Source: Modestobacter sp. Leaf380 (GTDB taxonomy: Bacteria > Actinomycetota > Actinomycetes > Mycobacteriales > Geodermatophilaceae). Taken from it: a stretch of 64,000 nt of DNA. The position numbers and the translations under genes were made by a program. Under the pieces are notes generated by a model, which saw nothing but the letters and a program-made list of their open reading frames with translations, ran no database searches and was not told where the DNA came from. Position 1 is the stretch's first letter, and the number at the start of each line of letters is the position of its first letter. The stretch covers positions 1-64,000 of the forward strand of contig NZ_LMQC01000006.1 in NCBI RefSeq assembly GCF_001424485.1, given 5' to 3'. Of this stretch, positions 58,746 through 64,000 are shown piece after piece.

Positions 58746-58781
58746 TAGGGTCGCGGTCGCCGTGCCGGGCACCAGCCCGGC
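58746..58781 (+). promoter_or_regulatory. Candidate promoter and leader hairpin of the sunscreen cluster
   Basis: TAGGGT (58746-58751) is a TANNNT -10 box. In the resulting leader, GCCGGGC-ACCA-GCCCGGC (58764-58781) forms a perfect 7-bp tetraloop hairpin ahead of the ribosome site CGGAG. A second possible -10, TAAACG, lies a little upstream near 58725. The remainder of the 58592-58745 spacer has no gene. Confidence 0.4.
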
Positions 58782-58807
58782 AGACGCCCCTCACGACGGA
58801 GTCGCCC

Positions 58808-59470
58808 GTGTCTGCCCTGCTCTTCGGTTCCATCAGCACCCTCGCCGACACCTCCGAGCTGCAGCGGGAGTCGTTCAACGAGGCGTTCGCCGCCCACGAC
58901 CTCGACTGGCGCTGGGACCAGGACGACTACCGCGAGATGCTGCGCGGCAACGGGGGCGCCGACCGGATCGCCGGGTACGCCGCCGAGCGCGGTCAGGACG
59001 TCGACGCCGCCGCCGTGCACGCCACCAAGTCCGAGCTCTTCCAGCAGAAGCTGGGCCGCGGCGGGCTGACCGCCCGCCCGGGCGTGCTGGAGTCCCTGCG
59101 CAGCGCGAAGACCGCCGGCGCCAAGGTCGCGCTGGTCACCACCACCTCGCCGGAGAACGTCGTCGCGCTGGTGCAGGGCGTCGACGAGCTGTCCCTGGAG
59201 GACTTCGACCTCGTCGTCGACAACTCCGTCGTCACCGAGTCCAAGCCCGACCCGGCCGCCTACGCCTACGCGCTGCGCACCCTGGGCGAGGACGCGGCCG
59301 ACGCCGTGGCCGTCGAGGACAACGTGGGCGGCGTCGAGTCCGCCAACGCCGCCGGCGTCACCGTGCTCGCCTTCCCGAACACCAACACCGCCTCGCACGA
59401 CTTCAGCGCCGCCTCCCGGGTCGTCGACCGGCTGGACCCCGCGCAGCTGCCCGCCGGCCTGCAGGCCTGA
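58808..59470 (+). CDS. Degenerate HAD-superfamily protein of the MAA cluster
   Basis: A 220-residue CbbY/beta-PGM-like HAD fold. Motif I, normally LFDxDGTLxDT with the nucleophile Asp, reads [17 protein letters not shown]: both catalytic Asp are replaced by Gly and Ile. Motif II Thr ([12 protein letters not shown]), motif III Lys ([15 protein letters not shown]) and motif IV acidic residues ([17 protein letters not shown]) remain. It probably keeps the fold and sugar-phosphate site but not phosphatase activity. A binding, scaffold or altered-chemistry role next to the sedoheptulose-7-phosphate cyclase is possible. GTG 58808 has CGGAG eight bases upstream. First gene of the cluster, 40 bases before mysA. 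Confidence 0.8.
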
Positions 59471-59510
59471 CGGACACCCCGACCGCGATCCCCGAGACCA
59501 GGAGAACCGC

Positions 59511-61530: not shown

Positions 61531-61539
61531 GGAGCTGCT

Positions 61540-62379
61540 GTGCAGACCACCACCTGGGAACCCCTGGGTGCCGAGGTCACCGACCTCGACATCGCCGCGG
61601 CCACCGACACCGACGTCGCCGAGCTGCGGGCACTGCTGGCCGAGCGGGGCGTCGTCGTGCTCCGCGACCAACACGTGGACGACGAGGTCTTCCTCGCCTT
61701 CCTGCAGTCCTTCGGGCCGCTGGCCTTCACCGCCGGGGAGACCCCGGTCGAGGGGTTCCCCGACCTCAACGTGATCAGCAACGTGGGCCGGGCGGAGCCG
61801 CCGCGCAGCACCTTCCACGTGGACAGCTCCTACCTGTCCACCCCGCCGGCCTACACGGCGCTGCGCGCGGTGCAGATCCCCTCGCAGGGCGGGGAGACGG
61901 TCTTCACCAACCAGTACCGCGCCGCCCGGACGCTGCCCGCCGAGCTCCGCGAGCGGGTCGAGGGCCGCAGCATCCGGCACGTCGTCACCGGCATCGACCC
62001 GGCGCTGCTGACCGCCGAGGACGAGACCGAGGCCGAGCACCCGGTGCTGCGGCCGCACCCGCTGTCGGGCCGGACGGCGCTGTACCTGTCCACGCCCAAG
62101 CGCTGTGCCGCGGTCAGCGGCCTGGACGACGCCGAGGCAGCCGACCTGGTCGCGCAGCTGTACGCGCACTCGACCAGCGAGGACAACAGCCTGGCGCACG
62201 CCTGGGCGCCCGGCGACGTCGTCATGTGGGACAACGGCTGCGTGCTGCACCGCGGTGACCACTCCGTCGTCGTCGGCGACCGGGTGATGCACCGCGGCAT
62301 GGTCGCCGACTACGGCCCCGCCGCCGCCGCCGCCGCCGCCGCCGCCGCCGCCGCCGACGACGACGGGTCGGGCCGCTGA
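61540..62379 (+). CDS. TauD/TfdA-type Fe(II)/alpha-ketoglutarate dioxygenase
   Basis: A 279-residue non-haem iron oxygenase. The iron triad is recognisable as FHVDSSYLSTPP (HxD) and NGCVLHRGDHSV (distal His); the ketoglutarate site includes GGETVFTNQYRAA and a C-terminal Arg in RVMHRGMVADYG. It should hydroxylate or desaturate a substrate using O2. Known cyanobacterial MAA clusters use a phytanoyl-CoA-type dioxygenase (MysH); a TauD-type enzyme between mysB and mysC is unusual. The C-terminus is 12 Ala codons (GCC repeat) and DDDGSGR. GTG 61540 has GAGGAGCTGCT upstream. Confidence 0.88.
   Translation: MQTTTWEPLGAEVTDLDIAAATDTDVAELRALLAERGVVVLRDQHVDDEVFLAFLQSFGPLAFTAGETPVEGFPDLNVISNVGRAEPPRSTFHVDSSYLSTPPAYTALRAVQIPSQGGETVFTNQYRAARTLPAELRERVEGRSIRHVVTGIDPALLTAEDETEAEHPVLRPHPLSGRTALYLSTPKRCAAVSGLDDAEAADLVAQLYAHSTSEDNSLAHAWAPGDVVMWDNGCVLHRGDHSVVVGDRVMHRGMVADYGPAAAAAAAAAAAADDDGSGR
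62320..62355. repeat. (GCC)12 trinucleotide repeat
   Basis: Twelve GCC units in the dioxygenase frame, encoding a polyalanine tail. Being a multiple of three, slippage would change only the Ala count, not the frame. Confidence 0.95.
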
Positions 62380-63716
62380 CCGCCGTCGCCACCCCGGCCG
62401 CCCGGCCGCGGCCGACGCCCTGGCGCTCGCTGGGTGCGCTGGCCGCGCTGACGCTCACCCTGCCGGTCGACCTGGCGGTGACGGCGGCCGCGCTGGTCAC
62501 CACCCGGCCGCGCCGTCCGGTGCCGGCGGCCGAGCCGAGGACCGTGCTGATCAGCGGCGGCAAGATGACCAAGGCCCTGCAGCTGGCCCGGTCCTTCGCC
62601 GCTGCCGGGCACCGCGTGGTGCTGGTGGAGAAGGCCACCTACCGGTTCACCGGGCACCGGTTCTCCCGCGCGGTGTCCGCGTTCCACGTCGTCCCCGACC
62701 CGCGGGACCCCGGCTACGCGCAGGCGCTGCTCGACGTCGTCCGGGCGGAGGGGGTGGACCTGTACGTGCCGGTCTGCTCGCCGGTGGCCTCGGAGTTCGA
62801 CGCCGCCTCGGCCGAGCTGCTGGCCGGGGAGTGCGAGGTGCTGAGCCTGGACGCCGAGCAGGTGCGCACGCTGGACGACAAGCACCGGTTCACCACGCTG
62901 GCCGCCTCGCTGGGCCTCAGCGTCCCGGACACGCACCTGGTGACCTCGCCCGAGCAGGTCCTCGACCACGACTTCACCGGTGCGACCAGGCCCTACGTGC
63001 TGAAGTCCATCGCCTACGACCCGGTGCACCGGCTGGACCTGACCCCACTGCCGCTGCCCACCCGCGCGGCGACGGAGGCGTTCCTGGCCGGCAAGCCGAT
63101 CACCCCGGACAACCCGTGGATCCTGCAGGAGTTCGTCACCGGCGACGAGGTCTGCACGCACTCCACCGCCCGGGACGGCGAGATCACCGTGTGGTGCTGC
63201 TGCCCGTCCTCGGCGTTCCAGGTGAACTACGCCCAGGTCGACCTGCCCCGGGTGCGGGAGTGGGTGTCCACGTTCGTCCGGGAGCTGGGCCTGAGCGGCC
63301 AGGTGTCCTTCGACTTCCTGGTGGCCGAGGACGGCACGCCCTACGCGATCGAGTGCAACCCGCGGACGCACTCGGCGATCACGGTGTTCCACGACCACCC
63401 GGCCCACCCCGGGCTGGCCGACGCCTACCTGCACGCCCGCGACACCCCGCTCGAGCCGCTGCCCACCAGCCGGCCCACCTACTGGCTCTACCACGAGCTG
63501 TGGCGCGCGATCAGCGCCCCGCGGACCGCGCGGGAGCGCTGGCGGGTGGTCCGGGAGGGCAAGGAGGCCGTGTTCGACCGGGCCGACCCGCTGCCCCACC
63601 TCGTGCTGCACCACGTGCAGGTGCCGGTGCTGCTGGTGCGGAGCCTGCTGGCCCGCGGGGCGTGGATGCGGATCGACTTCAACATCGGCAAGCTCGTCCA
63701 GCCGGCGGGGGACTGA
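62376..63716 (+). CDS. mysC: ATP-grasp mycosporine-glycine synthase
   Basis: Joins glycine to 4-deoxygadusol, giving mycosporine-glycine. It has the MysC signature VLISGGKMTKALQLARSFAA, then ATYRFTGHRFSRAVSAFHVV, the ATP-grasp core (TRPYVLKSIAYDP, WILQEFVTGDEVCTHS) and metal-binding PYAIECNPRTHSAI. MysC proteins carry a hydrophobic N-terminal segment; here it (SLGALAALTLTLPVDLAVTA) lies before the only GTG start (62478). A CTG at 62376, overlapping the dioxygenase stop as CTGA, would include it and is proposed as the start. 446 residues. Confidence 0.88.
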   Translation: MTAVATPAARPRPTPWRSLGALAALTLTLPVDLAVTAAALVTTRPRRPVPAAEPRTVLISGGKMTKALQLARSFAAAGHRVVLVEKATYRFTGHRFSRAVSAFHVVPDPRDPGYAQALLDVVRAEGVDLYVPVCSPVASEFDAASAELLAGECEVLSLDAEQVRTLDDKHRFTTLAASLGLSVPDTHLVTSPEQVLDHDFTGATRPYVLKSIAYDPVHRLDLTPLPLPTRAATEAFLAGKPITPDNPWILQEFVTGDEVCTHSTARDGEITVWCCCPSSAFQVNYAQVDLPRVREWVSTFVRELGLSGQVSFDFLVAEDGTPYAIECNPRTHSAITVFHDHPAHPGLADAYLHARDTPLEPLPTSRPTYWLYHELWRAISAPRTARERWRVVREGKEAVFDRADPLPHLVLHHVQVPVLLVRSLLARGAWMRIDFNIGKLVQPAGD

Positions 63717-64000
63717 TGACACTGCGCGTGCTGCACCTGGTCGGGTCGCCGACCAGCGCCTTCTTCGACGACCTGTCCCGGCTGTACGCCACGGACTGCC
63801 TGGCCTCGGTCGCCGACCCGGCCCGGTACGAGATGGTCCTGGCGCACGTCTCGCCGGACGGGTCGTGGCGGTTCCCGACCTCGCTGGACGCCCTCGCCGA
63901 CGCCGAGCCGCTGCCCATCGGGGCGGCCGTCGCCCGGCTGGTCGACCTCGACGTCGACATCGCCCTGCCGCAGATGTTCTGCATCCCCGGGATGACGCAC
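63716..64000 (+). CDS. mysD: D-Ala-D-Ala ligase-like MAA ligase MysD (partial)
   Basis: The gene runs off the right edge; 95 codons are visible. The start LRVLHLVGSPTSAFFDDLSR followed by LYATDCLASVADPARYEMVL and LPQMFCIPGMTH matches MysD enzymes, which attach a second amino acid (often serine or threonine) to mycosporine-glycine to give shinorine- or porphyra-334-like products. The ATG shares a base with the mysC stop (TGATG). The catalytic ATP-grasp part lies outside the window. Confidence 0.88.
   Translation, partial: MTLRVLHLVGSPTSAFFDDLSRLYATDCLASVADPARYEMVLAHVSPDGSWRFPTSLDALADAEPLPIGAAVARLVDLDVDIALPQMFCIPGMTH

Follow-up and report, generated by a model that had tools for sequence, protein, structure and literature searches.

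A predicted mycosporine-like amino acid operon of Modestobacter sp. Leaf380 with a TauD/TfdA-family dioxygenase and a conserved CbbY-like HAD protein lacking its catalytic aspartates

The stretch of DNA analysed here (the window, 64,000 nucleotides of contig NZ_LMQC01000006.1 from Modestobacter sp. Leaf380, a member of the Geodermatophilaceae with a genome of 4.76 Mb) ends in a gene cluster of the mycosporine-like amino acid (MAA) type. We interpret this cluster, with moderate confidence, as an MAA operon of the shinorine type that includes its own palythine step, and in which the haloacid dehalogenase (HAD)-fold protein at the head of the operon is a non-hydrolysing ketose-phosphate binder serving the cyclase end of the pathway. 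An earlier reading of the letters alone (the sequence-only reading) had listed HAD, mysA, mysB, TauD, mysC and mysD in this order, and all of these genes were found, on the forward strand. The features of the locus are as follows.

58720 to 58756, + strand: promoter-like block 5' of HAD, weak evidence from an alignment of 7 rows only
58808 to 59470, + strand: HAD, CbbY-like, 220 aa, motif I changed from DxDGT to GSIST, pseudophosphatase by motif
59511 to 60740, + strand: mysA, cyclase of the desmethyl-4-deoxygadusol synthase (DDGS) type, 409 aa
60742 to 61530, + strand: mysB, O-methyltransferase (OMT; Methyltransf_3), start GTG at 60742 or 60751
61540 to 62379, + strand: TauD/TfdA-family Fe(II)/2-oxoglutarate dioxygenase, 279 aa, triad H93/D95/H237 plus T120, R248 and R252
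62376 to 63716, + strand: mysC, ATP-grasp ligase (NCBIfam PRK06849), inferred start
63716 to 64000, continuing to contig position 64729, + strand: mysD, D-Ala-D-Ala-ligase-like, interrupted by the window end

The MAA assignment rests on the cyclase and its neighbors. The mysA product scored 547 bits against PDB 5tpr, 251 bits against the EEVS ValA (4p53) and 117 bits against the best DHQS; 5tpr, whose record says 3-dehydroquinate synthase, is presumably the Anabaena DDGS. Judged by these scores, the window cyclase is DDGS-type, neither EEVS nor DHQS, and an EEVS-type cyclitol cluster is ruled out (547 against 251 bits), so the MAA-type cluster named by the sequence-only reading stands. The cyclase is adjoined by an OMT, a MysC ATP-grasp ligase and a MysD ligase, which is the gene set of an MAA cluster. 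The roles of MysA to MysD are established, and the probable product of the cluster is a UV sunscreen of a kind that related bacteria have been reported to make.

The protein encoded at the head of the cluster is matched by HAD models, and its core and cap are CbbY-like in fold. A profile comparison with solved structures placed it closest to CbbY of Rhodobacter sphaeroides (E 1.4e-54) and its Arabidopsis relative (5.3e-36), and the AlphaFold model (mean pLDDT 95.5) has the same top structural matches, with a TM of 0.87 for CbbY. Compared with CbbY, a xylulose-1,5-bisphosphate phosphatase and its closest solved sequence, the window HAD has the same fold and keeps most of the cap and motif II to IV residues, but it is without the nucleophile and the acid/base Asp of motif I; the eight intact relatives compared have Asp at both positions, whereas the window protein reads F-G-S-I-S-T-L and has no DxD. 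Motif II retains Thr111 (where six of the eight intact relatives have Ser), motif III retains Lys146 and motif IV Glu170-Asp171, and the cap still has G49, G50, R53, H71 and K74 (GG..R and H..K), which are common to all eight. A usual working phosphatase is rejected on the loss of the motif I nucleophile, and HAD is, by motif, a predicted CbbY-like pseudoenzyme that is conserved and has lost both the aspartate nucleophile and the acid/base, as the sequence-only reading had proposed in calling it degenerate.

This lesion was compared across the named loci, the best 80 of 83 by mysA search; the patterns were window-derived, so close relatives are favoured, and the closest named matches to the window mysA are six Klenkia strains (89-92% identity), which points to Klenkia as the genus of the window. 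Motif I is GSIS[TS] in the alignment of 78 named copies (the 79th, L126, was excluded), with G7 and S8 in 78/78 and I9 and S10 in 77/78, and GS[I/L][S/G] replaces DxDG in all 99 readable copies (78 named, the window, 19 new loci and G079). S16, Q19, N172 and N193 (78/78) and E17 (77/78) all differ from the eight DxD relatives. Because the lesion and its neighboring residues are constant across copies, the site is one that appears to have been altered and then held constant, not one that drifts. Median dN/dS (NG86, 10 pairs of 5 Klenkia) was 0.36 for HAD, 0.37 for OMT, 0.40 for TauD, 0.29 for mysD, 0.24 for mysC and 0.19 for mysA, and HAD is, as judged from such ratios, under purifying selection.

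In all but one of the 80 named loci (79), HAD is the gene immediately 5' of mysA, so the adjacency is not a product of chance; the exception is the 80th, L157, which was set aside as EEVS-like (ValA 399 against 267 bits). The order HAD-mysA-OMT-mysC-mysD-TauD was found in 56 named loci (with TauD decayed in one, L145) and the window-like order, in which TauD separates OMT from mysC, in 14 (decayed in L119 and L152). The others, besides L157, were 3 loci without OMT, 2 without TauD, 2 whose TauD is encoded on the opposite strand and 2 cut by a contig end (L102 and L158). TauD comes after mysD in 59/80. With script-picked starts, the median gaps in the named loci are 32 bases for HAD-mysA, -4 for mysA-OMT and -4 for mysD-TauD.

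Family, class, order and phylum samples, which overlap in genomes, were also searched. Among 112 Geodermatophilaceae genomes, mysA at 89% or above was found in 8 and HAD at 76% or above in the same 8, all belonging to the genus of the window; a cyclase at this level was found in none of the other 104 (103 from 11 other genera and one 73%-complete congener), and the next-best HADs of the family with a readable motif I (L011-L020, 33-37%) carry DCDG. The cluster as a Geodermatophilaceae-wide trait is ruled out by this count (8/112, one genus). The argument of the sequence-only reading from an organism exposed to sun and desiccation is weak on the same count. In the class sample, the cyclase was found at E <= 1e-160 in 10/394 genomes, and HAD adjoins it in the window and the 9 others. 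In the order sample, the cyclase was found at E <= 1e-100 in 28/397 genomes, with HAD adjacent in 26 (window counted). In the phylum sample, mysC was found at E <= 1e-90 in 7/396 genomes and a GSI-type HAD in the same 7; the sole further HAD match at E <= 1e-30, in G588, has an intact DxD, and none of the other five genes was matched within 15 kb of it. For seven distant cyclases of the class sample (L162-L168, 31-42%) and for L157, the other five genes were unmatched by tblastn at E 1e-3 in the stretches fetched.

A combined hand count gave 102 clusters (79 named, the window, G079 and 21 further, identical loci removed; L176-L179 were first reached via a HAD search, and the mysC search recovered the same genomes). 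HAD is present in 100 of these non-redundant clusters, four of them in genomes outside the class. TauD status was scored in 93, the remainder having too little flank: TauD looks intact by match length in 83 (contig-end-cut in L122 and locus-end-cut in G079), absent nearby in 6 (L113, L144, L182, L218, L215 and L216), decayed in 3 (L119, L152 and L145) and broken by an assembly gap in L183. Conservation of both HAD and TauD with the cluster was thus observed, as the sequence-only reading had supposed. The three decayed TauD frames are shorter than 190 aa and have lost the HxD stretch, the other five genes being full-length or nearly so, and the tailoring step is, to judge by these frames, lost in L119, L152 and L145.

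Whether HAD belongs with the cyclase or with the dioxygenase can be considered from the same counts. All 83 clusters with an intact-looking TauD have HAD (in the L126 assembly the first part of the gene is out of frame), both HAD-less clusters are also without TauD, and the preprint PMC11888242 describes HAD and TauD/TfdA as conserved in actinobacterial MAA clusters and highly co-localized. HAD could accordingly be an accessory of the palythine step, as chaperone, partner or fragment handler of TauD; we regard this as unlikely, because HAD persists in 7 of the 9 clusters in which TauD is absent nearby or decayed (L113, L144, L182, L218, L119, L152 and L145) and stays beside mysA while TauD shifts in place and strand. 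L178 and L179 have divergent cyclases (40 and 37%), of which that of L178 still scores higher against 5tpr (238 bits) than against ValA (185 bits), and in both HAD lies between cyclase and OMT. L084, a Nocardioidaceae metagenome-assembled genome (MAG), is a mosaic in which HAD, mysA and OMT are 72, 87 and 69% identical to the window and mysC, mysD and TauD, in another order, 58, 58 and 61%; it is a single MAG and possibly chimeric. The HAD-mysA-OMT part of L084 is thus the more Klenkia-like, which also speaks against a TauD accessory. Since HAD stays by the cyclase while TauD moves or is lost, with L178, L179 and L084 in agreement, gene order favours a putative HAD role that follows the cyclase end more than the dioxygenase.

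The dioxygenase itself has a complete predicted active site. Residues H99, D101, H255, T126, R266 and R270 of Escherichia coli TauD correspond to H93, D95, H237, T120, R248 and R252 of the window protein, each found in 71/71 aligned relatives, and the HxD...H iron triad and the 2-oxoglutarate arginine of the TauD/TfdA family are apparently in place. In TauD, R266 binds 2-oxoglutarate and R270 the taurine sulfonate. TauD H70 and Y73 are replaced by T64 and E67 in the window protein, and its substrate therefore probably differs from that of E. coli TauD. The closest solved relatives are RdpA/AAD-1, PlaO1 and TauD. In the substrates of RdpA/AAD-1, the carbon that is hydroxylated is flanked by an ether oxygen and a carboxylate, and its hydroxylation is followed by cleavage; by analogy, an MAA attacked in this way at its N-CH2-COOH group would be left with an amine, which is palythine. 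The ScoE model, whose name refers to a (carboxymethyl)amino substrate, is also matched by the protein (E 2.1e-23), although this match falls far below the cut-off of the model. In unpublished work cited in PMC11888242, shinorine, palythine and palythine-serine were obtained from a Rhodococcus fascians operon that includes HAD and TauD, and PMC10510106 proposes the same glycine-removing chemistry for MysI. The likeliest product would be a palythine-type compound, with TauD removing the glycine side chain. The oxygenated product predicted by the sequence-only reading, a hydroxylated MAA retaining both amino acids, is less well supported and in our view decidedly unlikely: the TauD-family enzymes are hydroxylases and the active site seems intact, but the set of compounds reported from the related operon, known at second hand, is of another kind, and the invariant arginine aligned with TauD R270 would fit an acid group near the reacting carbon.

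In the proposed pathway, MysA would cyclise sedoheptulose 7-phosphate (S7P) to desmethyl-4-deoxygadusol, MysB would methylate this compound, MysC would add glycine and MysD a second amino acid (serine or other). TauD would hydroxylate the CH2 of the N-bound glycine, and the hemiaminal would collapse, so that glyoxylate leaves and the palythine-type ring amine remains. HAD most likely binds a ketose phosphate, S7P being the best guess, and would assist or gate the cyclase end without hydrolysis. The whole basis for S7P as ligand is that CbbY and DDGS both handle ketose phosphates: the ketose bisphosphate handled by CbbY has five carbons (PMC10212915), and S7P, the substrate of DDGS, has seven (PMC4426668). 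The genes, their order, the cyclase class, the TauD residues and the HAD lesion are read from the DNA, and we infer from them what the cluster produces, which compound TauD acts on and what HAD does. The RuBisCO large subunit had no match in the window genome, and a CbbY relative would therefore have no Calvin-cycle job there. In a bolder form, which we offer tentatively and do not consider probable, a dead CbbY phosphatase was domesticated as an S7P-binding partner of DDGS that captures or gates a scarce pentose-phosphate intermediate for making the sunscreen in organisms without a Calvin cycle, for which the RuBisCO search covers the window genome.

Two intact HAD relatives on plasmids adjoin RuBisCO genes, and one of them also adjoins transketolase. 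A degenerate relative with GSIGT is encoded on Roseobacter litoralis plasmid pROLI81 (L159:7989-8660), beside potassium-uptake genes. In a 41-row tree, midpoint-rooted for drawing only, this protein groups with the 32 HADs of MAA clusters, apart from the 8 DxD rows, with support of 100/97; its branch is long and its composition was flagged. The HAD lesion may therefore predate its use in MAA clusters, and the pROLI81 copy possibly hints at a wider pseudo-HAD group. HAD might instead be a working enzyme with new chemistry based on GSIS and re-specified neighbors, for which the constancy of S16, E17, Q19, N172 and N193 could be taken to argue; we find this improbable, as both catalytic Asp are gone family-wide, the Actinosynnema mirum genes give shinorine apparently without HAD, and we know of no MAA pathway step that lacks an enzyme. 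That HAD is a mere passenger at the operon start with no MAA role, as its absence from two actinobacterial clusters and that of Nostoc sp. HK-01 and its relative outside MAA clusters might suggest, is very improbable given its retention in 100/102 clusters, four outside the class, under purifying selection.

Several observations weigh against a ketose-phosphate binder at the cyclase end coupled to a palythine step. Two clusters of the order sample, in G926 and G974, have mysABCD with neither HAD nor TauD within 18.5 kb, and elsewhere these genomes contain only weak HAD matches (best E 2.8e-13). A review lists A. mirum amir_4259-4256 as a source of shinorine in yeast, and a streamlined Streptomyces host with the A. 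mirum cluster is likewise reported to make shinorine, in both cases apparently without HAD; the same review states that cultures of A. mirum itself showed no MAA, and the cluster may be silent at home. Because of G926, G974 and these heterologous results, HAD is not indispensable for the cyclase. The one cyanobacterial cluster examined, a 19 kb locus of Nostoc sp. HK-01, has no HAD homologue, and HAD and TauD are not present in Cyanobacteriota according to PMC11888242. The pROLI81 protein lies in no MAA cluster, and HADs of this kind thus have other roles. No TauD-positive cluster without HAD was seen, which makes a HAD-TauD link possible, and what has been published to tie TauD to palythine is second-hand and leaves TauD and HAD unseparated.

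The clusters of Pseudonocardia alni and R. fascians D188 described in PMC11888242 have the same six gene types as the window, whereas the place of TauD varies among the loci considered here; neither gene is thus new to actinobacterial MAA clusters, contrary to the sequence-only reading, which called both non-canonical. The preprint states that the role of HAD "remains unvalidated", and none of the terms "catalytic", "inactive", "active site" and "phosphatase" appears in its main text, so it seems not to discuss the HAD lesion. Searches for MAA with haloacid dehalogenase or mycosporine with pseudoenzyme found nothing else of apparent relevance in a literature with few subscription papers covered, and the near-uniform replacement of HAD catalytic residues across clusters may be unreported. 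The canonical mysABCD of cyanobacteria and A. mirum shares the cyclase, OMT and two ligases with the window. In the plasmid cluster of Nostoc sp. HK-01, mysA, OMT, mysC and mysD are 60, 51, 54 and 56% identical to those of the window, and a PhyH gene lies between mysC and mysD on the opposite strand instead of TauD; from its place this PhyH would be MysH. MysH is likewise an Fe/2-oxoglutarate dioxygenase encoded next to mysC and mysD and probably performs the same net reaction, but it belongs to PF05721 (PhyH) and the window TauD to PF02668 only. The window TauD had no tblastn match at E 1 on the Nostoc HK-01 locus, and no similarity to the putative MysH was thus detected there. The claim that tailoring dioxygenases in cyanobacteria are solely of the phytanoyl-CoA type does not hold, since PMC10510106 names a TauD/TfdA enzyme, MysI, which resembles the window TauD by description (same family name, proposed glycine removal); MysI is, however, described next to MysE and MysF, with C3 as its proposed site of action. 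A plasmid search with TauD gave no cyanobacterial record among the 25 of 396 records listed.

At the locus itself, HAD starts at GTG 58808, preceded by GGAG, and not at 58746, where the sequence-only reading had begun the cluster; the block at 58720-58756 is partly common to the window and six named Klenkia loci. The gap between HAD and mysA is 40 bases. The near-overlapping starts noted from mysA onward were confirmed: the mysA stop (60738-60740) is followed by a candidate mysB GTG at 60742, 9 bases separate mysB and TauD, and the mysC stop overlaps the mysD ATG (TGATG). The first ATG, GTG or TTG of the mysC frame is at 62478, and mysC probably starts at the in-frame CTG 62376, which overlaps the TauD stop and gives a hydrophobic N-terminal segment as in L144. 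Followed past 64000, mysD is complete at 64729 in the same contig, and the frame 3' of it is, to judge by its sequence, probably seryl-tRNA synthetase-like. The C-terminus of the window TauD contains a run of 12 alanines (GCC repeats, 62320-62355), whereas none of the 75 TauD relatives compared has 5 or more consecutive alanines within its final 40 residues. TauD lies on the strand opposite to the rest of the cluster, on either side of it, in L149, L150 and L217. No OMT lies between mysA and mysC in L095, L125 and L135 (named Mycobacterium) or in L188 and L196 (one genus); elsewhere in the three named Mycobacterium genomes, weak partial OMT matches (38%) were found in two and none in one, and such clusters may yield an unmethylated MAA or borrow another methyltransferase.

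These results add Klenkia to the known actinobacterial sunscreen clusters with HAD and TauD, the architecture itself being already in print, and turn the HAD role left unvalidated in PMC11888242 into a testable proposal, that of a pseudoenzyme tied to the cyclase end and not an active phosphatase. If this proposal is true, sunscreen pathways in heterotrophic hosts may miss a factor that helps to draw S7P from central metabolism, and the catalytic site of a phosphatase would have been turned into a site for non-hydrolysing handling of a sugar phosphate.

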